From a virus, in the IMG/VR virus record IMGVR_UViG_3300046492_000458, positions 1-64,000 of that record: a stretch of DNA of 64,000 bases; one strand, written 5' to 3'. Of the stretch, positions 5,901-63,668 are shown in pieces. Each line of letters begins with the position of its first letter. Position 1 is the first letter of the stretch. Made by a program: the position numbers and the translations under genes. The notes below the pieces were generated by a model, which was not told the DNA's origin, searched no databases, and was given only the letters and a program-made list of their open reading frames with translations.

Positions 5901-6824
5901 CTAGGCCTGCTCCTCCAGGTTCCCGGCCAGCTCTTCCAGCAGTTCACGCACCGCGCTCTCGAGTTCCTCCGCCTCCCGACGCGCCCGGGCGAGGTCGGTC
6001 TCCGCCAGGGCGCGGATCCGTTCCACCGCCTTCAGTGACTCGCTCGGCGTGAGCACCTTCGGCCCCGTCTTCTTCTCCGCCTCCTGGGTGAGCTCCTTCG
6101 GCGGGCCGTAGCCGAGGAAGTTTGCGGCATCCCGCAGCGTCTTGTCGATGACGTTGCCGTGCCGGGCCGCCTCCAGCCACGTCTCCCGCACCGCCTCGGT
6201 GCCGTGCGTCTCGAGGATCGGCACCAGAATCCGCAGGGGGCGTTCCTTCAGCTCCTGGGTGGTGATGTCCTCGAGTGCCTGCGCCACCGGCATCACTCGG
6301 ATGATGTTGTTGGCCTGGTGCTTCTTGATGCCGAAGCGGGCCTCGGCGAGCTCCCCGAACGTGTCGTGTCCGGCGACCTTGTGCAGCTCCTCCACCTTCA
6401 TCGCCCGCAGCCGGAGCCCGAGCCCGATCAGTTTCTGCTGTTCGGCCCGTTCGTGGTTGGCGCGGGCCGCGTACTGCACGGCGAGGATGCCCCGCGCATA
6501 GAACTCCAGCCGGGTGGCCGGGTCGTCGCTGTCCGGCTCGGTGAAGTCCGGCATCGGCAGGTACCCGGTCGCCGCGGTCCTGACGGCCGGCACAGATTCC
6601 GTTCCCGCCGATTCCGTCTCCGCGGGCTCCGCTACGGCCAGAACGGCGGCCGGGGGTGCGGCAGGTGCCGGGACCTGCGCCACCACAGCCGCGGGCGCGG
6701 CATGCTGCTCGCGTAGCTTGCGCTGGCTGTCCTCCCACTGCCGCAGCTGGTCCTCGCGGGACTGGTCACCGCTTCCGCCGGAGCCGACGACCGGGATGAC
6801 GGGGGCGACCTTCTTCGAGCTCAC
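5901..6824 (-). CDS. parB: ParB-like centromere-binding protein
   Basis: 307 aa, GTG start overlapping the parA stop. The N-terminal 100 residues are Ala/Pro-rich and likely disordered. Residues about 105-215 are helical and contain TFGELAEARFGIKKHQANNIIRVMPVAQALEDI, a plausible helix-turn-helix. A C-terminal coiled coil follows (KAVERIRALAETDLARARREAEELESAV). It lacks the GERR box of chromosomal ParB, so it is the plasmid-type partner of ParA. The palindromes at 5807-5876 lie 25 bases beyond its stop. Identity rests mainly on operon position after parA and on the HTH plus coiled coil. Confidence 0.7.
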   Translation of the reverse strand: MSSKKVAPVIPVVGSGGSGDQSREDQLRQWEDSQRKLREQHAAPAAVVAQVPAPAAPPAAVLAVAEPAETESAGTESVPAVRTAATGYLPMPDFTEPDSDDPATRLEFYARGILAVQYAARANHERAEQQKLIGLGLRLRAMKVEELHKVAGHDTFGELAEARFGIKKHQANNIIRVMPVAQALEDITTQELKERPLRILVPILETHGTEAVRETWLEAARHGNVIDKTLRDAANFLGYGPPKELTQEAEKKTGPKVLTPSESLKAVERIRALAETDLARARREAEELESAVRELLEELAGNLEEQA

Positions 6825-7966
6825 GCCGCCAACTCCTTGGCCAGGGCGCGCATGACCTGCGCCTGACCGGAGTCAGGGGCGTGCTCGAGCAGCGGGATCT
6901 GGTAGTCGGATGCCTCGCGGCCCTCGATGGCGTCCTTCAGGGTGGCCAGCACACCGGGTGTGGTGAGCTCGCTCCACCCGTCGTAGAAGGCGCGGGTGAC
7001 AACGCCCTTGCGGGAGTCGTAGGCGTTCACGACGAACCCGAGCTGGTCGACGACCGCTCCGGTCATCCGGCTGTGGGTGTCGATCTGCTCGTTCAGCATC
7101 TCGTAGGCGTCGAACGAGGAACGGTCCGACCAGACGGGCATCAGGATTCCGGAGTGGTCGATCAGCTCGCCCGGGCGACGCTGGACGTAGTTGATGGCGA
7201 GGTCTATCGCCAGCCCCAGGTTCGGAGGGCCGTCCAGGACGATGACGTCGTAGGAGTCCTCGACGGGGGCGAGCGCGCGGGCCAGGCAGGTGTCGCGGCC
7301 GACCTGGAGGAGCGCCAGCTTGGCGTCCATCAGGAAGGCGTCCTTGCTCGCGGGCAGAACGTGGAGACGGCCGCCGAACCGTTCGTGGGGGAGCGCGACG
7401 AGGGAGCGGGCCAGGTGCTTGTCGGCCTCGCCGAGCATGTGCGTGAGGAGACTGTCGGACCCGGTGGGAAGGCCAGGGATCTGCAGGCGGCTGGTGAGGT
7501 GCCCTTGGGGGTCGTAGTCGACGAGGAGAACGCGCAGGCCGGCCTCCGCCATGGCCTGGGCGAGTCCGGAGGCCACGAACGTCTTGCCGACACCACCCTT
7601 CTGGTTGCCCACCAGGATCCGCTTCACGGGCTGGGCGACGAGGCGCTCGTCGGGGGATGGGTGGGCCTTCAGCCACAGGGTGATGGCCTGGGCCATGCCC
7701 TGGACCTTCGTCAGACTGCGGGAATCGCACTCGCTTGCGAACCGGTGCGGGCCCCCAGCGGGAAGGAACACGCCCCACGACTTCGATCCCCTGGTCTCGA
7801 TGTCCGGGGAGCCCGGGGTGTCGTACCAGAGACTGAGGGCGGAGGCGACGGCGTCCTGCATGTTCAGCCCGTGCTCGGCTGCCCTGATGCGCAGGTCACG
7901 GCGTAGCTCAGGAGTCAGGTTAACGAGCAACTTTTCGCGCGCTTCTTCGGCGCCTGGGTGGGTCAT
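6821..7966 (-). CDS. parA: ParA partition ATPase with an N-terminal DNA-binding-like extension
   Basis: 381 aa. The deviant Walker A motif GNQKGGVGKT is at about residues 118-127, followed by LLVDYDPQGHLT (Walker A' region) and VIVLDGPPNLGLA (Walker B). This is a ParA/Soj ATPase that segregates plasmids by interacting with ParB. The first 60 residues (LTPELRRDLRIRAAEHGLNMQDAVASALSLW) look like a ribbon-helix-helix or HicB-type element and could mediate autoregulation. ATG 7966 is preferred to a TTG at 7975. A TAATTT -10-like hexamer (7972-7977 on the complement) is so close to the ATG that the message may be leaderless. Confidence 0.93.
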   Translation of the reverse strand: MTHPGAEEAREKLLVNLTPELRRDLRIRAAEHGLNMQDAVASALSLWYDTPGSPDIETRGSKSWGVFLPAGGPHRFASECDSRSLTKVQGMAQAITLWLKAHPSPDERLVAQPVKRILVGNQKGGVGKTFVASGLAQAMAEAGLRVLLVDYDPQGHLTSRLQIPGLPTGSDSLLTHMLGEADKHLARSLVALPHERFGGRLHVLPASKDAFLMDAKLALLQVGRDTCLARALAPVEDSYDVIVLDGPPNLGLAIDLAINYVQRRPGELIDHSGILMPVWSDRSSFDAYEMLNEQIDTHSRMTGAVVDQLGFVVNAYDSRKGVVTRAFYDGWSELTTPGVLATLKDAIEGREASDYQIPLLEHAPDSGQAQVMRALAKELAA

Positions 7967-44680: not shown

Positions 44681-46324
44681 ATGACCGCCACCCCGGCCCC
44701 CGGCACCGAGCCGACCCGCCCCGCCGTGGACGGCACCCTCGCGCCCACCGCGCCGGGGCAGCCCCCCATCACGCAGCCCCTCACCCGCACCCAGAAGACC
44801 CTCACCGGCGTCGTCGTCGGCGCCGTCCTCATCATCGCCACCCTCGGCTTCATCGGCTCCTACAGCGCCGTCACCCACCTCGCCATCCGCAAGGGCTTCG
44901 GCGAGTTCGCCCACGCCTTCCCCATCGCCGTCGACGCCGGCATCATCGCCTTCCTCGCCCTCGACCTCCTCCTCACCTGGCGCCGCATCGGCTTCCCCCT
45001 CCTCCGCTACACCGCATGGGGCCTCACCGCCGCCACCATCGCCTTCAACGCCGTCGCCGCCTGGCCCGACCCCGTCGGCGTCTCCATGCACGGCGTCATC
45101 CCCGTCCTCTTCGTCATCGCCGTCGAAGCCGCCCGGCACGCCATCGGCCGCATCGCCGACATCACCGCCGACAAGCACCTCGAAGGCCCCAACGCCTCCC
45201 GCTGGCTCCTCAACCCGGCCGGCACGTTCATCCTGTGGCGCCGCCAACGCCTGTGGAAGATCCGCCTGTGGGACACCGTCCTCGAGCTCGAGCGGGAGCG
45301 CCGCATTTATATCGGGCAGCTCCGCGGCACCTACGGCCGCGGATGGCGCCGCAAGGCCACCGCCGACCAGCTGCTCATCCTCCAGCTGTCCAAGGACGGC
45401 ATGAGCGTCACCGAGGCCCTCGCGCTCCCCGCCAAGGAGGCGGAGAAGCAGCGCGCCGAGGAGGACCGCATCAAGCGGAACCGGGAGCGCGCCGAAGCCG
45501 ACCGCCGCCGCCAGGCCGAGAACGAGCGCCGCGAGCAGAAGGAAGCCGACGAAGAGCAGGCCCGCCGCATCGAGGAGGAGCGCCTCGAACTCGAGCGCAA
45601 AGCCATCCAGGTCCAGCAGGAGAAGGACGAGGCCAACCGGCAGAAGCTGCTCGCCGACGCCCAGACCCGCGCCGACCTCGCCGAGATCCAGCGGCAGCAG
45701 CAGGAGAACGAGGCCGAAGCCGACCGCCGCCGCCAGGCCGCCCAGGACGAAGACGACCGACGCCGGCGCAACGAGCAACTCGAGCACACCCGCCTCATCA
45801 CGGCCGAGCAGGAGAAGGCTGCCCGAGCCGCTCAGGTTCGCCGCGAGAACGAAGAGCGCGCCCGGAAGGAAGCCGAGAAGAAGCTGGACGCCAGCACCCG
45901 CGCCGTCGAGATGCTCCGCCGCGCGGACAGTGCCAGTGCCAAGCAGGCGGCTGCCAGCCGCACTACCAGCCCTGCCAGTGCCAGCGCCGCACCTGCCACC
46001 CCGGCTGCCAACACCACGACTGCCAGTGCCAGCCCGGCACCTGCCAACGCCCCCCACCCTGCCAGTGCCAACAGCCCGGCTACCAACGCCAGTCCTGCCA
46101 GTGCCAGCGCTGCTACCACCTCTGCCAGCACTACCAACCCGATTGCCACCGACCACGTCGTCGCCACCTACCAGCTGCTGCAGGAGAAGGACGGCAAGGC
46201 CCCGTCCGACGCCAGGCTCGGCGAAGCCCTCGGCGTCTCCCGCTCCCGTGCCCAGCAGCTCCGCACCCAGGCCATCAACGACGGCCACCCCGAGCTGGCA
46301 AAGCCCCTCCGGATCGCCTCATGA
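44681..46324 (+). CDS. DUF2637 membrane protein of the transfer/spread cluster
   Basis: 547 aa. Residues 40-160 hold four membrane helices typical of DUF2637 (LTGVVVGAVLIIATLGFIGSYSAV, FPIAVDAGIIAFLALDLLLTW, YTAWGLTAATIAFNAVAAW, VIPVLFVIAVEAARHAIGRI), followed by WLLNPAGTFILWRRQRLWKIRLW. From about 250 to 410 is a long charged coiled coil (KEAEKQRAEEDRIKRNRERAEADRRR...), then an Ala/Ser/Pro-rich stretch (AASRTTSPASASAAPATPAANTT) whose codons form TGCCAGTG repeats, and a C-terminal HTH (DARLGEALGVSRSRAQQLRTQAI). DUF2637 proteins neighbour traB in Streptomyces conjugative elements and are thought to help intramycelial spread. Confidence 0.85.
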   Translation: MTATPAPGTEPTRPAVDGTLAPTAPGQPPITQPLTRTQKTLTGVVVGAVLIIATLGFIGSYSAVTHLAIRKGFGEFAHAFPIAVDAGIIAFLALDLLLTWRRIGFPLLRYTAWGLTAATIAFNAVAAWPDPVGVSMHGVIPVLFVIAVEAARHAIGRIADITADKHLEGPNASRWLLNPAGTFILWRRQRLWKIRLWDTVLELERERRIYIGQLRGTYGRGWRRKATADQLLILQLSKDGMSVTEALALPAKEAEKQRAEEDRIKRNRERAEADRRRQAENERREQKEADEEQARRIEEERLELERKAIQVQQEKDEANRQKLLADAQTRADLAEIQRQQQENEAEADRRRQAAQDEDDRRRRNEQLEHTRLITAEQEKAARAAQVRRENEERARKEAEKKLDASTRAVEMLRRADSASAKQAAASRTTSPASASAAPATPAANTTTASASPAPANAPHPASANSPATNASPASASAATTSASTTNPIATDHVVATYQLLQEKDGKAPSDARLGEALGVSRSRAQQLRTQAINDGHPELAKPLRIAS

Positions 46325-46527
46325 CTAGCACTGGCAACTGGCAGCCCACTGCCAATCGACCCGACCGACACCTGCCAGCACTGGCAGAGGAAGACGCGAT
46401 GGCAACCACCGACTGGCACACCCCTAGCACCCAGGAGCCCCGGCTGGCAGACCCGGCCGGGGTGCCAACCCGCGTCCGCCCCACCCCTGCTGGCAGCCGG
46501 CCACTGGCAACTCCGGTCCTGCCAGTG
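45931..46527. repeat. TGCCAGTG repeat cluster with orientation switch
   Basis: TGCCAGTG occurs on the plus strand at 45931, 45973, 46021, 46060, 46096 and 46520; its complement CACTGGCA starts at 46329, 46379 and 46502. Many shorter TGCCA/TGGCA half-copies lie between. Inverted pairs occur at 46372-46387 (CTGCCAG/CTGGCAG) and 46501-46528 (CCACTGGCA/TGCCAGTGG). Left of about 46150 the plus orientation dominates; right of it the complement does. The repeats force rare codons (AGT Ser, GCA Ala). This resembles the short direct repeats bound by Streptomyces TraB at clt sites. Confidence 0.7.
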
Positions 46528-46926
46528 GCACCCGACTGGCCGTCCCGCTGGCACCTCCTCGTCCCCCGCGGCGTACGCAACCTGGCAGAAGCGTGGGGGC
46601 TGTGGCAGAACCCGACCCCGCTCATCCCCTCCGACCACCTCACCCAGACGTTGGCCGTCCTCGAGCGCTATGGCTGGGCCCGCTCCCTCGACTTCAGCCC
46701 CACCGGCCGGATGTGCATCCGCGGCGGTCAGACCCTCCTCGAGCACACCGGACACGTCACCCCCGCCAACCGGGCCCGCGCCGTCGACTACATGCAGCAA
46801 ACCCTCCGCGAACACGGCGTCCACGAACCGTTCTTCGCCTGGAACGACCACACCGGCCGCACATTCCCGCAGGTCAAGCACCTCATCACCGCATCCGCCC
46901 ACGCCGCACGAAAGAACGGAGAATAA
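46321..46926 (+). CDS. DUF6197-like protein, 201 aa
   Basis: ATG overlapping the DUF2637 stop (ATGA). Residues 1-80 are low in structure and carry the right half of the repeat cluster. Residues 85-195 (VRNLAEAWGLWQNPTPLIPSDHLTQTLAVLERYGWARSLDFSPTGRMCIRGGQTLLEH ... FFAWNDHTGRTFPQVKHLITASAHA) match the DUF6197 outline of a helix, RMCI.GG, and a final WND..GRT..V..L..A. Compare 10948 and 19240. Function unknown; possibly transfer regulation. Confidence 0.6.
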   Translation: MTSTGNWQPTANRPDRHLPALAEEDAMATTDWHTPSTQEPRLADPAGVPTRVRPTPAGSRPLATPVLPVAPDWPSRWHLLVPRGVRNLAEAWGLWQNPTPLIPSDHLTQTLAVLERYGWARSLDFSPTGRMCIRGGQTLLEHTGHVTPANRARAVDYMQQTLREHGVHEPFFAWNDHTGRTFPQVKHLITASAHAARKNGE

Positions 46927-46929
46927 GCC

Positions 46930-47508
46930 GTGACTCCCGAGGAATTCGACCAGGAATTCGGCCCCGAATTCACCCCGCAGCCCACCATCGATCCCACCCC
47001 ATACGGCTTTTCCCCGCACGCCGTAAAGCCCGTGAAGACCGGTCTCACGCCGCGCGGAAAGGTTGCCCTCGCTATCAGCGCGGCCGCGATCGCCACGGGC
47101 GGCATCGTTGGTTACCAGGTGTATTCGGCAGACCAGGCCCAGAGTGAAGCCAAGGCGCAGGAAATCGCCTACAAGAAAGACCTTCTCGAGCTGGAAAAGC
47201 TGAAGGTGCAGAGCCAGGTCAACAAGACCCAGGACAGTGCTACCAGCGTCCGGCAGAAGCAGGTCGATGCCTGCGTCGCGAACAGCAAGGACCTCGTCGG
47301 CAAGTCCCTGAACAGCAGCTACCGGGACATCGTGGAGGCCTGTCAGGCCCAGTACACGGGCAGCGGCAGCGACGCCGACATGCAGACCGCGGCGTCCTCA
47401 CATGCCACCTCGGGCGGCGTCAACAGCGGGGTCTTCCTCGTGGGAGGCGTCTTCGTCGTCGGCCTCGTCGTCCTCGTCAGGAAGGGCACCAGGAGCAACG
47501 CAGCGTAG
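46930..47508 (+). CDS. Two-pass membrane protein of the spread cluster, 192 aa
   Basis: GTG start, weak ribosome-binding site (GAGAAT). VALAISAAAIATGGIVGYQVY (about 40-60) is a first membrane helix, a soluble part with coiled coil follows (EIAYKKDLLELEKLKVQSQVNKTQDSATSVRQKQVDACVANSKDLVG), and GVFLVGGVFVVGLVVLVRKGT is a C-terminal helix. Similar in layout to Spd-type proteins that bridge cell compartments. Family not certain. Confidence 0.62.
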   Translation: MTPEEFDQEFGPEFTPQPTIDPTPYGFSPHAVKPVKTGLTPRGKVALAISAAAIATGGIVGYQVYSADQAQSEAKAQEIAYKKDLLELEKLKVQSQVNKTQDSATSVRQKQVDACVANSKDLVGKSLNSSYRDIVEACQAQYTGSGSDADMQTAASSHATSGGVNSGVFLVGGVFVVGLVVLVRKGTRSNAA

Positions 47509-47626: not shown

Positions 47627-49393
47627 ATGGCAAGCGACACCGCGCCGGCAGCCGTCCCCGACCCGATCGGCCAGCCCGCGACCGACACCTCAACCGGCCC
47701 GGCCACCGGGCCGGTTACCGGCCTGCTCGCCCCCATCGAACCCGCCCGGCCCACCTCTGCGGCCTTCAACCTGGACCCGTCCGCCGTCGCCCCCGACGCC
47801 GCCGGAAGCGTCGATCAGGCCCCCGCCAGCGCCTCCAGCTCCACCTACCAGAACGACACCGACATCACGGGCGCCAAGGACGGAAAGAACAGCAGCAACA
47901 AGCAGCAGACCGGAGTGATGCGCGCATTTGCACTGGCTGCTATCGAGCGGTGGAAGAAAGGCGCCGACGCACGCAACAAACGCCTCGACATTCAGAAGGC
48001 GAAAGCAAGTGCACACCAGACGAAGGAATCCCGCACCGTCAACCGGTCCGAAAAGTTTGCGGGCGGGTCCACGAATTCCGGCACGGCGTCCGGTAAGTCG
48101 CTGGATTCCAAGACGCACAAGGGTGCGGGCGGCTCCGGAAACGGCGGATCGAAGAACGGTTCGCAGAAGAACGGCGGGTCGAAGAACAGCAGCTCAGGCA
48201 ACGGTTCGGGGGGCGGTTCCCGGTCTGGCGGACGTTCCGGCAGTGGTGGCGCGTCGGGATCGGGAGGGTCCGCCGGTGGCCGCGGCTCGAGCGGAGCGTC
48301 CGGCCGCGGCGCCGCTGGGAACAGCAACAGCGGAACCTCCCCCAAGACTTCGAAGACCGACTTCAAAGGCCACAGCGGGTCCTCCCAGAACGGCACCGAC
48401 AGCAAGAAGAACGGCCGCAAGGACGCGGCTGGCACCAAGACGGACACGGCGACCTGCGGCGACTCCTCCGGGATCAGCCTGACCAAGGACAAGAAGAGCA
48501 AGAACCGCGACAACAAGTCCGACGCCCGGAAGAACGGTCGTACCGACACCACGGACGCCAAGGGCAGCAGCAAGGACACCACGTCCGGCAGGACCAGCAA
48601 CGGCAAGGGCGCGGACGCGGTCGGGTCTTCCGCCAAGCCGTCCAACGCCGGCGACACCAAGACCGGCAAGACCCGAAAGAGCAGCAAGGACAGCAACCCG
48701 GCCGCCAGCGGCACGCCGATCAACACCCAGCCGTCCCGCGAAGCCGGATACCGCGACGGATCCCGCACCGCCAAGGCCACCGCCCACGTCAAGGCCTACC
48801 GCGACGGCTTCAAAGACGGCCACCACGACACCAGCAAAGCCGCCGAACGAGAGAAGCAGCGTCTCGACGAGGCGCACGAGGCACGCAAGCAGCAGCGAGC
48901 AAAGGACCAGCCCGTGACCGCCTCCAGCGCCGACCACCAGCCCCAAGGCCCCCAGCCCATCGACGTCAAAGAGGTCACCGACACCCACGTCACCCTCGAC
49001 AGCGGGAAGACCTACACCCGCGGCGAGGTCCGCAACCTCAAGCAGTACGAACGCCGCATGGCCGTGAAGGCCACCAACATGGGCAAGGCCGCCGAAGGCA
49101 CCCGCCAGCTCGAGGCCCACGCCGAACAGCAAGCCGACAAGGCCTTCAAGTTCCTCGAGATGGCCAAGACCGTCGAAGGCGGCGACCGGTTCGTCGGCAT
49201 CCTCACCCGCCTCCACGAGGCCGCCACCATCCAGATCCGCGAAGCCCAGGAACTCCACAAGCGAGTCGTCCGCGCAGCTGAGAACACCCGCGTCGTCCTC
49301 GTCAACGTCGAGATCCGTTACGGCGGGATCTACAAGGCCGTCTGCGAAAGCCCCCTGACCAAGCCCGCCGAACTCAACTGGTACAGGAAGTAG
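47627..49393 (+). CDS. Low-complexity Gly/Ser/Lys protein of the spread cluster, 588 aa
   Basis: ATG with a weak AAGGAT ribosome-binding site. Residues 1-90 are Pro/Ala-rich. From about 150 to 370 it is almost entirely Gly, Ser, Asn, Lys, Asp and Thr (GGSKNGSQKNGGSKNSSSGNG, SGGRSGSGGASGSGGSAGGR), highly charged and disordered. Residues 405-588 fold into a helical domain with IDVKEVTDTHVTLDSGKTYTRGEVRNLKQYERRMAVKATNMGKAAEGTRQLEAHAEQQADKAFKFLEMAK and INVEIRYGGIYKAV-like strands. The ordered end resembles companion proteins of the DUF2637/TraB clusters. A scaffold role at the transfer site is possible. Confidence 0.72.
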   Translation: MASDTAPAAVPDPIGQPATDTSTGPATGPVTGLLAPIEPARPTSAAFNLDPSAVAPDAAGSVDQAPASASSSTYQNDTDITGAKDGKNSSNKQQTGVMRAFALAAIERWKKGADARNKRLDIQKAKASAHQTKESRTVNRSEKFAGGSTNSGTASGKSLDSKTHKGAGGSGNGGSKNGSQKNGGSKNSSSGNGSGGGSRSGGRSGSGGASGSGGSAGGRGSSGASGRGAAGNSNSGTSPKTSKTDFKGHSGSSQNGTDSKKNGRKDAAGTKTDTATCGDSSGISLTKDKKSKNRDNKSDARKNGRTDTTDAKGSSKDTTSGRTSNGKGADAVGSSAKPSNAGDTKTGKTRKSSKDSNPAASGTPINTQPSREAGYRDGSRTAKATAHVKAYRDGFKDGHHDTSKAAEREKQRLDEAHEARKQQRAKDQPVTASSADHQPQGPQPIDVKEVTDTHVTLDSGKTYTRGEVRNLKQYERRMAVKATNMGKAAEGTRQLEAHAEQQADKAFKFLEMAKTVEGGDRFVGILTRLHEAATIQIREAQELHKRVVRAAENTRVVLVNVEIRYGGIYKAVCESPLTKPAELNWYRK

Positions 49394-49398
49394 CCCCC

Positions 49399-49779
49399 AT
49401 GGCAGACACCCGCTACGAACAGTTCCTCCGGCTCGTCACCGACTTCGGCAACGAGATCATGGCCGACGCCGAAGCCCTCCGCGGCTGGTCCCAGTTCATC
49501 GACGGCGAATCCCGCGACACCGCCCACGTCGCCGACATGATCTCCGCGAAGCGCGTCGACAAGGACACCGTCGGCGAAACCCAGGAACTCGCGAAGATCA
49601 TGCTCGGGGTGTCCGAGCAGGCCATCCAATACGCCTCCGCCGGGGACACCACCACCCGCCTCGCCCGAGCCAGCCACGACGAAGCCGTCAACAGCCACCA
49701 GGCCATCAGCGAGCAGGTCAACGCCTCACCCGCAGTCGGCATCCACGACGTCGACAACGACTGGCTCACCCAGGAATAG
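49399..49779 (+). CDS. Helical companion protein of the transfer cluster, 126 aa
   Basis: ATG with AGGAAG upstream. Helical throughout: YEQFLRLVTDFGNEIMADAEALRGWSQFIDGESRDTAHVADMISAKRVDKDTVGETQELAKIMLGVSEQAIQYA. Positioned between the low-complexity protein and TraB; small helical proteins at this position recur in Streptomyces transfer clusters. Exact role unknown. Confidence 0.65.
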   Translation: MADTRYEQFLRLVTDFGNEIMADAEALRGWSQFIDGESRDTAHVADMISAKRVDKDTVGETQELAKIMLGVSEQAIQYASAGDTTTRLARASHDEAVNSHQAISEQVNASPAVGIHDVDNDWLTQE

Positions 49780-49828: not shown

Positions 49829-52120
49829 ATGAGCATCAACGCGAACACCACCAGCCAGCCCGCCGCCAGCACCACAGAACGCCGTATCGCCAGCATCACC
49901 AGCGCCGCCCCCATCGTCATCGGCATGGGCTCCCCCTTCCTCGACGGCAGCGCCGCCTTCCTCACCACACTCGCCTACGGCAGCGTTGCCGCCCTCACCA
50001 CCGCCAACTACATGAACCGGCTCCCACCCGGCCTGCAGAACCATCTCCCGGCCGCCGACATCCTCCGCGCCCACCGCACCCCCCTGGCCATCTCCACCCT
50101 CACCAGCGGCATGGCACTCGCCCTCGGCGTCCTCCAGGGCCCCGATGGCGCCGACGCCCTCCTGGCCGGCTTCCTGACCCCGCTCAGCGTGCCAGGCATC
50201 GTCTCCCTCGGCTGGTGGGCCGCCGTCGGCTTCGTCCCCCTCAAACTCCGCAAGGTCCTCGGCCGCGTCCGCATCCCCAAGCAGCCTGCTCCCGCGGCCG
50301 ATGCACCCAGCCCCACACCCGAACCCCTCACCCCCGCAGAGCAGATCGCCTACCGCTGGCACCAGATCGTCTCCAACCGGGAAACCGGCACCCACAGGGG
50401 CCAGAACATCGAGATCCGCACCCTGTCCACGATGCGCTGGCAAGGCACCATCACCGCCCCCGCAGGCCAGTCCGTCACCGTCACCGCCGACACCGTCTCC
50501 AGCGCCTACCAGTCCACCCCCTACCAGGTCCGCGCCGCCTGGATCCGCTTCGAGGACGGCGCCCACTCCGGCGAACGCCACATCACCGTCAACCTGGTCC
50601 CGCCCCTCGAACTCGACACCAACACCCTCCAAGGCGCCTGGCGCAAGTGGGCCGCACGCTCCGGCGGCGTCATGGCCGGCACCCACCTCGAAGACGTCCA
50701 GACCGACCCCAACACCGGCGGCGAAGTCGCCCACGTCACCGCAGGAGAGAACCTCGACAAGCTGCCCGTCCCCGACCGGGCCGCCCTCGCCGGCGCCCTC
50801 CGTACCAACACCCTCCTCTGCTCCTACGCCCCCGTCCCCGGAGACCCCCGCCGCGGCATCATCCGCCTGATGAAGCACAACCCCCTCAAGAAGGGCGTCC
50901 CGTTCCCCGGCACCCACGTCCTGAAGATCTCCAAGGGCGGCTACGTCCAGATCGGCCAGCACGTCTCCGGATTCCCCGCCCGCATCCAGTTCGTCGACCC
51001 CAAACTGGGCGCCAAGCACCTCTTCATCGCCGGGGTCACCGGATCCGGCAAGGGCGGCCTCATCCAGATCGTCGCCCTCGCCGACCACGTCAACGGCCAC
51101 GCCATCATCTACGCCGACCCCAAGGGCTCCTCCAACCCAGACGTCGAAGAGATGGCCTGCTACCCCGGCCTCGGCGAAGACGGCTGCATGGGAGCCCTGC
51201 GCGTCGCCTACGCCCTGCTGCAGTGGCGGATCGAAGAGTCCGCGCGGCTGAAGATGAAGAACTTCATCGCCACGCCCGAACGCCCCTGGGTCCGCGTCAT
51301 CCTCGACGAAGCCCACGTCCCACTGTCCGAACTGGTCCAGTACCGCAAGGAAGCCCGGATCATCGTCGAAGCCCTGGCGGCCAAGGCCCGCTCGCTCGGC
51401 ATCATCCTGACCGTCGTCAACCAGGCCGTGAACGCCGACAAGCTCGGCGGCTCCACCGCCTTGCGAACCAACGTCATCCAGGGCGGCTCCCTCGTCATGC
51501 TCCGCACCGACTCCGACCAGAGCAACCTCGTCACCACCGGCTTCGAAGGCGTCGACCCCGGCCAGATCCCCGCCGCCTGGGACGTCGACCGCCCGCTCAT
51601 CTACGACGAGAGCATCGCCCTCCAGGACCCCGAATCCACCTTCGGCCTCGGCTACACCCTCGGCCCCGGCGGAGCCGCCGAAATGATGCGCGACTTCATC
51701 CTCGAGTCCGCCGCCCCCTACATCGACGAGACCGCCATCGCCTACCCCGCCGACTGGCCCGACTGGGACAACCGGCACGAGATCGCCCAGACGTCCATCC
51801 TCGGCGACGACGAAGACGAGGGCATCGTCATGGAAAGCAGCACCGGCGGCAGCGCCACCCTGGCCGGCCCGCCGAAGGAACCCACCGCCGACGAGAAGAT
51901 CCTCGCCGTCCTCCAGGACGCCGCCGACCCGATGGGCGAAGAGGTCATCTACACGCACAAGGACGACATCGAGAAGCTCGCCGCGCTCACCACCTCCACC
52001 CTTGAGAACCGGCTTTCACGGCTGGTCAAGGAGGGGCGAATCCACCGCATGCCCGGCAGCGGCCAGGCCGTCCGCGGTAAGTACGGCCTCGGCCCCACCC
52101 CGAACGACGCCGCCGCCTGA
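49829..52120 (+). CDS. traB: FtsK/TraB-type conjugative DNA translocase
   Basis: 763 aa. Residues about 25-130 contain membrane helices (AAPIVIGMGSPFLDGSAAFLTTLAYGSVAALTT, GIVSLGWWAAVGFVPL). The motor carries Walker A GVTGSGKGG (about 402-410) and Walker B WVRVILDEAH (about 487-496), then IILTVVNQAVNADKLGGSTALRTNV with an LRTDSDQSN motif typical of FtsK-like translocases. The C-terminal 80 residues (DEKILAVLQDAADPMGEEVIYTHKDDIEKLAALTTSTLENRLSRLVKEGRIHRMPGSG) form a winged helix like the DNA-reading gamma domain. Such proteins move double-stranded plasmid DNA between mycelia. The Walker A ends in KG rather than the usual K-S/T. Confidence 0.9.
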   Translation: MSINANTTSQPAASTTERRIASITSAAPIVIGMGSPFLDGSAAFLTTLAYGSVAALTTANYMNRLPPGLQNHLPAADILRAHRTPLAISTLTSGMALALGVLQGPDGADALLAGFLTPLSVPGIVSLGWWAAVGFVPLKLRKVLGRVRIPKQPAPAADAPSPTPEPLTPAEQIAYRWHQIVSNRETGTHRGQNIEIRTLSTMRWQGTITAPAGQSVTVTADTVSSAYQSTPYQVRAAWIRFEDGAHSGERHITVNLVPPLELDTNTLQGAWRKWAARSGGVMAGTHLEDVQTDPNTGGEVAHVTAGENLDKLPVPDRAALAGALRTNTLLCSYAPVPGDPRRGIIRLMKHNPLKKGVPFPGTHVLKISKGGYVQIGQHVSGFPARIQFVDPKLGAKHLFIAGVTGSGKGGLIQIVALADHVNGHAIIYADPKGSSNPDVEEMACYPGLGEDGCMGALRVAYALLQWRIEESARLKMKNFIATPERPWVRVILDEAHVPLSELVQYRKEARIIVEALAAKARSLGIILTVVNQAVNADKLGGSTALRTNVIQGGSLVMLRTDSDQSNLVTTGFEGVDPGQIPAAWDVDRPLIYDESIALQDPESTFGLGYTLGPGGAAEMMRDFILESAAPYIDETAIAYPADWPDWDNRHEIAQTSILGDDEDEGIVMESSTGGSATLAGPPKEPTADEKILAVLQDAADPMGEEVIYTHKDDIEKLAALTTSTLENRLSRLVKEGRIHRMPGSGQAVRGKYGLGPTPNDAAA

Positions 52121-60177: not shown

Positions 60178-60643
60178 CGGCGGTGCGCGTGCACGCTCCG
60201 GTCCTGCCCCTGACCCGACTGCGCTGCGGCGTGACCGGGATGCCGGCGAGTGGACGATCCTGCCTGCGGAGGGCCGACAGGGCGCAACGCCCGAGTGGCC
60301 GCTGACCGAGCAGACGATCCGTGAAGCCGACCTGTGGGGCGCCTTGTGGCGGAAGCCACAGGCGATCATGTGGGAGCGGTATGGCCAGGAGTTCGAGGTG
60401 GCGCTGTACGTGCGCCGCTTCTCCGAGGCCGAGTTGATGGACTCCCGGGTGAATCTGTCGACGCTAATCCGGCAGATGGCGGACTCGCTGGGTCTGACGA
60501 CGCCGGGGATGCGGGCGAACCGGTGGCGGATCGCGGTCGATGAGGTCGCGGAGCGCCGTGAGGGGGCCGGGAAGCAGCAGCCGGCCACGCGGCGCGCGGC
60601 TCGGGATCGTTTCAAGGTCGTGCCCGGTGACGGGGGCGAGTGA
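60170..60643 (+). CDS. Phage terminase small subunit
   Basis: 157 aa, start overlapping the previous gene. SGGARARSGPAPDPTALRRDRDAGEWTILPAEGRQGATPEWPLTEQTIREADLWGALWRKPQAIMWERYGQEFEVALYVRRFSEAELMDSRVNLSTLIRQMADSLGLTTPGMRANRWRI is the usual Streptomyces phage small-terminase pattern. It recognises the packaging site and hands DNA to the large subunit, whose gene overlaps its end. Confidence 0.85.
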   Translation: MPSGGARARSGPAPDPTALRRDRDAGEWTILPAEGRQGATPEWPLTEQTIREADLWGALWRKPQAIMWERYGQEFEVALYVRRFSEAELMDSRVNLSTLIRQMADSLGLTTPGMRANRWRIAVDEVAERREGAGKQQPATRRAARDRFKVVPGDGGE

Positions 60644-62264
60644 GCAGGTCGTCCAGTGGCCCACGCTCGGCTTTCTGATCGCGGACTGGGTTGAGGCGCA
60701 CTGCGTCATCCCGGACGGGTTCTCTGCTGGTGAGCCGTATGTTCTGACGGACGAGATGCTGTGGTTCTTCCTGAACCACTACCGGGTGAAGCCCGGGGCG
60801 ACGCGCGAGCGCTCGATGTTGTCGCCAGCGTCGGCGTTCCATTTCCGGCGTAGCCAGCTGGTCCGTCCGCAGAAGTGGGGCAAGGGACCGTTGACTGCCG
60901 CGCAGGTCTGCGTGGAGGGTGTCGGGCCTGCCGTGTTCGCCGGTTGGGCGGCTGGCGGCGAGGTCTACGACTGCCGGGTTCACGGCTGCGGCTGTGGCTG
61001 GGTGTTCGAGTACGAGCCGGGCGATCCGATGGGTATGCCGTGGCCGACGCCGCTGATTCAGATCACGGCGTTCTCGGAGGAGCAGACCGACAACATTTAC
61101 GGCGCCCTCAGGCCGATGATCGACAAGGGTCCGTTGTCGGAGCTGATTCCGAAGACGGGCGAGGAGTTCATCCGCCTTCCGGGTGGCGGCCGCGTCGACA
61201 CGGTGACGTCGTCGGCCCAGTCTCGCCTCGGCCAGCGCGTGACGTTCGTGCCTCAGGACGAGACTGGCATCTGGACGACTGAGAACAAGATGCAGAAGGT
61301 TGCCGATACGCAGCGGCGTGGCCTGGCGGGTATGGGTGGCCGGTCGACGGAGACGACGAACGGCTGGGACCCGTCGGAGAACAGCGTGGCGCAGCGGTCG
61401 TTCGAGGCGAAGGTCCAGGACATCTTCCGGGACTTTCGCAAGGCGCCGGCCGATCTGAACTACGCCAAGAAGACGGACCGTCGGAAGATCCATAAGGCGG
61501 TGTACGGCGACTCCTGGTGGGTCGACCTCGACGCGATCGAGGCCGAGGCCGCGGAGTTGCTGGAGCGTGACCAGGCGCAGGCGGAGCGGTTCTTCGGGAA
61601 CCGGATCACGGCCGGTACCGGTACATGGCTGGCCCGGGATCGTTGGGATCTGCGGGCGGTACCCCGTGAAGTCCCGGACGGTACGCCTGTTGTCCTCGGC
61701 TTCGACGGCTCGGACATCGACGACTGGACCGGCATCCGCGCCGAGACGCTGGACGGCTATCAGTTCACACCGGTGTACAGCTCGCTGGAACTGCCGACTA
61801 TCTGGGATCCAGCCGAGTGGGGCGGTCAGACGCCGCGGCTTGAGGTAGATGCGGCGGTGGATGAACTGATGCGTCGCTATCGGGTGGTGCGCATGTACTG
61901 CGATCCGCCGTACTGGCCAACCGAGGTCGATACCTGGGCGGAGCGGTACGGCGAGAAGCGCGTGGTCCGCTGGTACACGCACCGGGATGTTCAGACGCAT
62001 GCGGCCTGCGAGCGCCTGTTGACGGACGTGACAAAGGCCGACAGCGGATTCACGCACGACGGTTGCGAAGACACATCGGCGCACGTGGGGCACGCGCGGA
62101 GGGCGGCCCGCACCGCTGGCCGCTACGTGCTCCGGAAGGCCGCGCCCCATCAAAAGATCGACATGGCGATGGTGTCCATCCTCGCCCACGAGGCGGCGGG
62201 CGACGCAATCGCAGCTGGCCAGGCCCGGCCGAAGGTTTCCCGGAAGACGACTGTGATGCGCTGA
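60627..62264 (+). CDS. Phage terminase large subunit
   Basis: 545 aa from GTG 60627, overlapping the small subunit by 17 bases. RSQLVRPQKWGKGPLTAAQV (about 76-95) is the Walker A region, VTFVPQDETGIWTTENKMQKV (about 205-225) the Walker B and coupling region, and VVLGFDGSDIDDWTGI (about 354-370) with MYCDPPYW the nuclease centre. ATP-driven packaging and cutting of phage DNA is the known role. It starts the head-gene order terminase, portal, minor head. Confidence 0.94.
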   Translation: MTGASEQVVQWPTLGFLIADWVEAHCVIPDGFSAGEPYVLTDEMLWFFLNHYRVKPGATRERSMLSPASAFHFRRSQLVRPQKWGKGPLTAAQVCVEGVGPAVFAGWAAGGEVYDCRVHGCGCGWVFEYEPGDPMGMPWPTPLIQITAFSEEQTDNIYGALRPMIDKGPLSELIPKTGEEFIRLPGGGRVDTVTSSAQSRLGQRVTFVPQDETGIWTTENKMQKVADTQRRGLAGMGGRSTETTNGWDPSENSVAQRSFEAKVQDIFRDFRKAPADLNYAKKTDRRKIHKAVYGDSWWVDLDAIEAEAAELLERDQAQAERFFGNRITAGTGTWLARDRWDLRAVPREVPDGTPVVLGFDGSDIDDWTGIRAETLDGYQFTPVYSSLELPTIWDPAEWGGQTPRLEVDAAVDELMRRYRVVRMYCDPPYWPTEVDTWAERYGEKRVVRWYTHRDVQTHAACERLLTDVTKADSGFTHDGCEDTSAHVGHARRAARTAGRYVLRKAAPHQKIDMAMVSILAHEAAGDAIAAGQARPKVSRKTTVMR

Positions 62265-62282: not shown

Positions 62283-63668
62283 GTGGCCCTCGACCTCGAG
62301 CCGGATGCCTGGCTGAAGCGGCTGATTGCGGCGCACGACAACGACCTGCCGCAGCTGCGGTTGATGGACAGCTACTACGAGGGCACGCAGCCTCTGTCGT
62401 ATCTGGCGCCGGAGATCCAGTCGGAGCTGTCGGACCGGATGCGGCAGCTGGTCATCAACTGGCCGCAGCTGGTCGTCGATGCGCTGGATGAGCGGCTGGA
62501 CGTCGAGGGTTTCCGGTACGCGGACTCGGAGACGACGGCCGAGGATCTGTGGTCGGTGTGGCAGGCCTCCGACATGGACGAGGGCAGTCAGCAGGCCCAC
62601 GTTGACGCGCTGGCGCTGAAGCGCTCCTATGTGATCATCGGTGCGAACGAGACCGACGAGTCGACGCCGATCATCACGGCCGAGTCCGCGCTGGAAGTCT
62701 TCGCCGAGCGGGATCCGCGGACGCGTCAGGTGATGGCGGCGATCAAGCGGTGGGATGAGCCCGCGGCGGCCGGGTCCGCTCCGGTGAAGTGGGCGACGCT
62801 GTATCTACCGAAGAAGCGGTGCACGTTCGAGCAGCAGAAGGGCGTCTGGGTCGAAGTCGACCGGGACGAGCACAACGTGGGCCAGGTGCTGGTGGTACCG
62901 CTGGCGAACCGGCCGCGGCTTCGGCATCTGGACGGCACGTCTGAGCTGCGTTCGGTGATTCCGATCTCGGACGCGGCATGCAAGATCGCCTCGGACATGA
63001 TGGTGTCTGCGGAGTATCACGCGATGCCGCGCCGGTGGGCGACGGGCATGTCCCGGGATGATTTCGCCGACGAGAACGGGCAGCCGCTCGGCGCAATGTC
63101 GTCACTGGCGGGCCGTCTGTGGGTGAACGAGGGCGAGAGCGTCAAGTTCGGCCAGTTCCCCGAGGCGCAGCTCTCGAACTTCCACGAGACGATCAACGTT
63201 CTTGCCCGGCTGGTGGCCGCCCTGACAGGCCTGCCTCCCGCGTTCCTCGGCCTGGCCACCGACCAGCCGCCGTCGGCGGATGCGATCCGTGCGTCGGAGG
63301 CCCGCCTGGTGAAGCGTGCGGAACGCAGGCAGCGGGCGTTCGGTGAGGCGTGGGAGAGGGTGATGAGGCTCGTTCTGCTCGTGCGGGACGGCGACTTGGA
63401 CCCGCGGACCCGCAAGCTGGAGACGGTCTGGCGGGACCCGGCGACGCCGACCTACGCCCAGAAGGCGGACGCGGTCGTCAAGCTGCACACCAGCGGCATT
63501 CTGCCGACGGAGCAGGCCTGGGAGGACCTCGGCTACTCGGCGGTGCAGCGGGACCGGATGCGGGGCATGCAGGATGAAGCCCTGACCCGTATGACCGCGA
63601 TGGATCTACAGCAGCTGTCTACGGCCCAGCCGGAGCCGCAGCCCTTCGAGGCCCCTCCGGGAGGCTGA
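62283..63668 (+). CDS. Phage portal protein (SPP1 gp6-like)
   Basis: 461 aa, GTG start. RLIAAHDNDLPQLRLMDSYYEGTQPLSYLAPEIQSELSDRMRQLVINWPQLVVDALDERLDVEGFRYAD is the SPP1-gp6 family opening; the C-terminus has LARLVAALTGLPPAFLGLATDQPPSADAIRASEARLVKRAERRQRAFGEAWERVMRLVLLVRDG, typical of portals. It forms the dodecamer through which DNA enters the capsid, and it follows terminase as expected for a siphovirus. Confidence 0.94.
   Translation: MALDLEPDAWLKRLIAAHDNDLPQLRLMDSYYEGTQPLSYLAPEIQSELSDRMRQLVINWPQLVVDALDERLDVEGFRYADSETTAEDLWSVWQASDMDEGSQQAHVDALALKRSYVIIGANETDESTPIITAESALEVFAERDPRTRQVMAAIKRWDEPAAAGSAPVKWATLYLPKKRCTFEQQKGVWVEVDRDEHNVGQVLVVPLANRPRLRHLDGTSELRSVIPISDAACKIASDMMVSAEYHAMPRRWATGMSRDDFADENGQPLGAMSSLAGRLWVNEGESVKFGQFPEAQLSNFHETINVLARLVAALTGLPPAFLGLATDQPPSADAIRASEARLVKRAERRQRAFGEAWERVMRLVLLVRDGDLDPRTRKLETVWRDPATPTYAQKADAVVKLHTSGILPTEQAWEDLGYSAVQRDRMRGMQDEALTRMTAMDLQQLSTAQPEPQPFEAPPGG

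Follow-up and report, generated by a model that had tools for sequence, protein, structure and literature searches.

The TraB/clt systems of the Streptomyces plasmids pSVH1, pJV1, pWTY27 and pIJ101 are built on TRS repeats that differ between plasmids (PMC3583192, PMC12857230). In two other plasmid systems, the binding site lies within the gene of the protein that binds it. SpdA2 of pIJ101, a 135-aa protein whose DNA-binding region is N-terminal and conserved and for which no membrane part is described, has its sites (sps) in its own coding sequence, and sps is a 12-bp palindrome present in 2–3 copies and conserved between plasmids (PMC4170104). ParT of SCP2, a sliding clamp that works with ParA, carries parS, one 18-bp inverted repeat, in its own gene (PMC12260392). 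In pSVH1, the plasmid-encoded protein SpdB2 is integral to the membrane, binds DNA and makes contact with TraB (PMC4170104, citing Tiffert et al. 2007); where that source deals with SpdB2, its DNA binding is reported as non-specific and no array or HTH code is described. Clustered clt repeats, sites in the binder's own gene and a DNA-binding membrane protein contacting TraB are already known, each separately. For a membrane-anchored reader whose array is embedded in its own gene and re-specified from element to element, which is how we interpret the locus below, we found no description in the open-access papers searched.

The locus was studied in the IMG/VR record IMGVR_UViG_3300046492_000458, a 65.6-kb contig of which positions 1–64,000 were analysed (hereafter, the window). 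Phage marks are a terminase gene (60540–62264) and a portal gene (62283–63668), and, judged by these together with its ParA and TraB-like genes, the element is a Streptomyces phage-plasmid with transfer genes. Its ParA-type ATPase gene (6824–7966, minus strand) is followed by a 307-aa gene without a family match (5904–6824, minus strand); the two may be a partition pair distinct from the array. The transfer operon is headed by what we call gene A (44681–46324, plus strand; the ATG at 44681 was picked as its start by comparison with the related locus L050), which encodes a 547-aa DUF2637 protein (PF10935, E=1.1e-37, 129.9 bits for a cut-off of 22.8). An ATGA overlap joins it to a DUF6197 gene (46321–46926, plus strand; PF19698, E=2.3e-18), and three plus-strand genes without family matches follow, one membrane-protein-like (46930–47508), one large and of low complexity (47627–49393) and one small (49399–49779). 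At the end of the operon lies the gene for a TraB-like (FtsK/HerA-type) DNA-transfer ATPase (49829–52120, plus strand) with the Walker A motif GVTGSGKG and a C-terminal winged HTH of its own; it gives an FtsK/SpoIIIE-like PHROG match (E=7.5e-4), and a plasmid homologue is annotated 'type IV secretory system conjugative DNA transfer'.

A first-pass annotation of this DNA had pointed to nine clustered copies of an 8-base motif, TGCCAGTG, in the transfer region. All nine were recovered, five on the plus strand at 45931–46103, three on the minus strand at 46329, 46379 and 46502, and one on the plus strand at 46520. The 8-mer count over the whole window gave only two further copies, with 2.5 expected in 64 kb, and a total of 11 was reached by none of 100 shuffles. 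The array does lie in a transfer operon, as the TraB-like ATPase gene belongs to the same operon. The unit, however, is shorter and the cluster denser than had been claimed. The 8-mer was dropped in favour of the 5-mer core TGCCA/TGGCA, with a logo that is mostly (C)TGCCA(G/A); 33 copies lie in 45931–46607 versus ~103 in the other 63 kb of the window. The first half of the array (45931–46148, plus strand) consists of 16 TGCCA copies, all in a single frame (nnT GCC Ann), within the Ala/Ser/Thr/Asn/Pro linker encoded by gene A. The second half (46296–46607) holds 17 TGCCA/TGGCA copies on both strands and in three frames. One of them is near the end of gene A; the other 16, which occupy both strands and every reading frame, fall in the first part of the DUF6197 gene, where they encode an N-terminal extension that makes this protein ~30 aa longer than its aligned relatives.

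Selection on the DNA rather than on the protein, as had been proposed, was borne out by codon resampling in both genes. When synonymous codons were resampled over 2000 rounds with the protein and the codon usage of the element fixed, not one round matched the 17 copies seen in the gene A tail (0.47 expected), nor the 16 in the head of the DUF6197 gene (4.4 expected). Since these counts lie beyond synonymous resampling, the array is selected as DNA, and it is probably a protein docking site, as the first-pass annotation held.

Relatives were gathered by TraB, DUF6197 and DUF2637 similarity and scanned for any over-dense word. From the TraB relatives alone, the cluster had seemed private to this element, an idea that was overturned by the any-word scan. 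Most gene A homologues, which come from Streptomyces phage-plasmids, linear plasmids and temperate phages including VWB, carry, at the corresponding position, a cluster on both strands, made of another word. The words found are TGCCA (5 loci), GGCTCA, GGCTGCG, CGGATGC, CGCATC, CGCCTCA, GTCCGGA, CGAACA, GAGACC, CTGAAG, CGAAGC, CGGTCA, CGGCCA and AGTCACC, as well as GGGTGC in phage VWB; they are asymmetric and 5–7 bp long, with 15–35 copies per array. Word labels were set by script, a few being corrected by eye, and a word could be assigned to 71 of 79 different DUF2637 genes, the array being absent or too weak in the other eight. L068 and L164, which share an HTH and differ in their top word, looked like a counterexample, but the two are identical in sequence and their word is degenerate, G(GA/AG/GG)TGCG. 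A large part of the array in A6-type linear plasmids lies after gene A in a gap of 375–1152 bp without annotated genes, and a 167-kb plasmid has a single dense CGGTCAC field, at 80.5–81.4 kb. The array is absent in L010, L016, L021, L022, L032, L043, L054, L138 and L146 and weak in L195; L010, L016, L032, L043 and L054 have, in the same place, non-DUF2637 membrane genes with the C-terminus PSQNAFEKAWRDAGYGLKTDDIRALYKEIH and without a short-word array.

Slippage in low-complexity linkers (Ala-Ser, Glu-Pro, Gln-Pro) could in principle have produced such repeats by codon drift, with no function of the DNA, and the linkers are indeed of low complexity, with amino acids that match the words. We consider this hardly credible. 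In 28 of 28 loci tested, representing 13 words, the coding count was above all 500 synonymous resamplings of each locus; T-ending codons before GCC are confined to the gene A tail (a T precedes GCC-A.. in 16 of 20 cases there versus 0 of 30 elsewhere); copies occur on both strands, in three frames, in the next gene and in non-coding gaps; and the word follows the HTH, as described below.

FtsK-KOPS and SpoIIIE-SRS systems use short asymmetric words that are spread over the chromosome with a strand bias. The array word is likewise short and asymmetric, but it forms one dense field, which is strand-balanced where it is non-coding. The orientation counts of non-coding arrays are 6/6, 8/9, 7/8 and 7/8, with L197 (2/15) and L202 (2/10) as exceptions; most are near strand-balanced rather than consistently oriented as if pointing a motor. 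Arrays of the CGAAGC class lie mostly on one strand, inside coiled-coil codons. The strand switch noted in the first-pass annotation is real in the window, but its reading as a mark of loading or arrest did not survive this comparison. Because one orientation suits the codons of an Ala-Ser-rich linker and non-coding arrays are mostly balanced, we attribute the switch to coding, and the polarity can be explained without a loading or arrest signal.

The gene A protein is predicted, from an AF2 model and hydropathy, to comprise four TM helices, a coiled coil, a disordered linker and a C-terminal HTH. The disordered linker of the model corresponds to nt 45899–46135, coinciding with the stretch encoded by the plus-strand half of the array, and the HTH to 46148–46279 (plus strand), with its putative recognition helix around GVSRSRAQQLRTQA. 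The HTH fragment was modelled with a pLDDT of 87 (helices H6-20, H26-33 and H37-49); its nearest PDB folds are sigma region 4, a weak match (best E 0.17), and it scores below the cut-off of the PF04545 profile. PDB sequence searches with TraB and with the HTH gave no useful match. By description, the gene A protein resembles SpdB2 as a plasmid-type integral membrane protein in a tra operon, with four predicted TM helices, a TraB-like gene in the operon and DNA binding that we infer; it differs from the SpdB2 of that account in its array and HTH code.

Which part of the proteins does the word follow? Over the 71 DUF2637 genes, those with similar C-terminal HTHs tend to have the same word (r 0.76), and a partial Mantel test that accounts for membrane-domain similarity leaves the word–HTH correlation at r 0.70 (0 of 2000 permutations). 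With the HTH accounted for, the partial correlation of the word with the membrane domain is r -0.04. On the membrane-domain tree, in which some long branches are unsure, at least 33 word changes are needed (shuffled mean 56.6), and near neighbours with differing words include L086/L087, L091/L097, L106/L204 and window/L018. The GGCTCA-type HTH class is found joined to DUF2637 domains and also to membrane domains that do not match DUF2637 (L040). In addition, genomes were searched with the HTH only, after the classes had been defined and with the word of each new locus playing no part in choosing it; these searches led to the word foreseen from the class, or to one akin to it, namely GGCTCA in L100, GTCTCA in L103–L105, CGGATGC in L162 and GGCTGC in L163, L165 and L167, while at several weak HTH matches no such word was present. 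Recognition of the word by the HTH of the gene A protein is therefore well supported by comparison.

The first-pass annotation had instead suggested TraB as the protein that recognises the repeats. In such a reading the array is clt, where the winged HTH of TraB binds and from which it pumps the DNA, as on pSVH1 and pWTY27. The setting is compatible with this: a TraB-like gene lies 3.2 kb downstream of the array, and known clt loci likewise have short repeats clustered in cis close to a TraB-type motor and can extend into a tra gene, by 16 bp into traA in the case of pWTY27 (PMC3583192; review PMC12857230). However, among the 14 elements that have a TraB gene within range (91 pairs), the word shows no relation to the TraB C-terminus (r 0.01, an indirect test) and a close one to the HTH of gene A (r 0.97). 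L041 (GGCTCA) and L042 (CGCATC) have different words and a common TraB helix, SSGSTLDNALTRLTKTGQIHRR; L059 has the word of the window and an unrelated TraB; and some arrays have no TraB gene nearby, lying beside parA-parB or in phages. The TraB-like ATPase is thus probably not the reader of the array, and clt is an unlikely identity for it. Compared with TraB/clt, the reader here appears to be a separate membrane-HTH protein, with 15–35 both-strand copies that lie mostly in the reader's gene and are also found without TraB.

Within HTH classes, differences in the HTH sequence go with differences in the word. In the S-P-x-TGQR class, K at x, a position in the recognition helix, goes with CGGTCA in 16 of 16 different HTH sequences and R at x with CGGCCA in 7 of 7, one of which (L146) is without a clear array. 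The association of K/R with T/C gives a Fisher value of 4e-6, which is not tree-corrected and is based on related sequences that are not independent, and the K/R switch is accompanied by neighbouring residues (RRV or RRLDKA). In the GIGQ class, GIGQRRA goes with GGCTGCG, HIGQPRA with CGGATGC and RIGQKKA with GGGTGCG, and a GIGQ-type HTH with GGCTGCG recurs in an unrelated context (L136). Considering that the HTH and the array are physically linked and so inherited jointly, the two might covary without binding; an array-wide base change that accompanies one helix residue, even if not tree-corrected, is the best argument against mere linkage.

On balance we favour a model in which the gene A protein binds the array in and around its gene and so keeps the DNA of the element tethered at the membrane, in the service of transfer or segregation. 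Gene A would form one module with the array: a membrane-anchored sequence-specific DNA binder plus a dense field of sites for it, the majority lying within the sequence that encodes its linker. With the N-terminus in the membrane, the long coiled coil and flexible linker would carry a small HTH that binds one asymmetric word of 5–7 bp, and 15–35 close copies would bring many membrane-bound molecules onto the same DNA, creating a docking patch. In the window, the DNA would probably be presented to the operon's own TraB-like motor, and in other elements tethering may serve segregation beside ParAB, so that tethering would be the role common to all, and transfer or segregation its uses. If the HTH and its word are swapped as a pair, or given a new specificity, each element would obtain its own address. 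Direct binding, multivalent tethering and a role in transfer or segregation are what we infer from these comparisons. A TcpC-like conjugation gene follows the module in L137. Against a tether, temperate phages such as VWB integrate and have no obvious need of one of the plasmid kind; no transfer gene is annotated near the VWB module.

Alternatively, the array could be a plasmid centromere and gene A the centromere-binding protein of a partition system. Site arrays are typical of centromeres, parA-parB lies directly upstream of gene A in L124, L125, L197, L198 and L207, and gene A, if it binds the array, shares with ParT a binding site inside the binder's gene. ParT is not described as membrane-anchored and has one 18-bp inverted repeat in place of an array. 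Against a centromere, the ParA gene of the window is 37 kb away and has its own small partner gene; the ParB of L125 already has a ParB-type HTH; many arrays are at the heads of transfer operons or in phages; and the ParB sites of SCP1 are inverted repeats of 13–19 bp (PMC13245405). We regard a centromere as possible but doubtful. Quite improbable, in our view, is a regulatory array by which gene A, as a membrane-bound regulator, represses or attenuates its own operon by covering the DNA. The resemblance of the HTH to sigma region 4 (with weak scores) would fit, as would an array that sits within the operon and overlies the beginning of the DUF6197 gene. The array, however, has 20–35 sites over 700 bp, far above what autoregulation needs, mostly in reading frame and not at a promoter, and in A6-type plasmids it comes largely after gene A. 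Of the DNA-binding proteins described, SpdA2 offers the parallel of sites in what would be the binder's own gene, the array differing from the palindromic sps, with its few copies of 12 bp, in its asymmetric word and high copy number.

DUF2637 proteins occur in >300 plasmid records and in phage VWB, and Pfam lists the family as of unknown function. The membrane tether proposed here offers it a testable role, with a target word that can be predicted from the protein. A more general reading, which we rate as an even call, is an address system of Streptomyces mobile DNA, with a membrane-bound reader, a binding field in the reader's own gene, an exchangeable cassette of reader plus word and a readable code from residue to base by which the DNA to be kept at the membrane is chosen, as a matter of identity, incompatibility or transfer specificity. 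The locus also presents a case of a disordered protein linker moulded by the DNA sites written into it. The pairing of K or R with T or C supplies a natural code for orthogonal DNA tethers, and the module may provide a direct route to how Streptomyces plasmids and phages hold and move DNA.

Several variants of the locus were also recorded. A small second HTH protein is encoded after gene A, under the same array, in L050 (5527–5895), L059 (7558–7935), L060 (1954–2334) and L062 (7482–7898); this second HTH protein of the other TGCCA-class elements is of the LKQTTAYDRL type, which is the HTH class of the CGAAGC group. The window is without this small gene and has the DUF6197 gene in its place. 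In L198 (NZ_CP108391.1), only a 149-aa HTH gene (1331–1780) is annotated after parA-parB at the place of gene A, yet the locus retains its CGGTCA array. Two clusters of other kinds were noticed during the scans. One, in L132 (15034–15628) and away from the matched gene, consists of CTTGTC/ACAAG in 12–13 copies within 600 bases. The other, in Streptomyces phage Gilgamesh (L135, 7391–8190), has 119 CGCGC in 800 bases, near a DUF2637 gene and AAA-ATPase genes.
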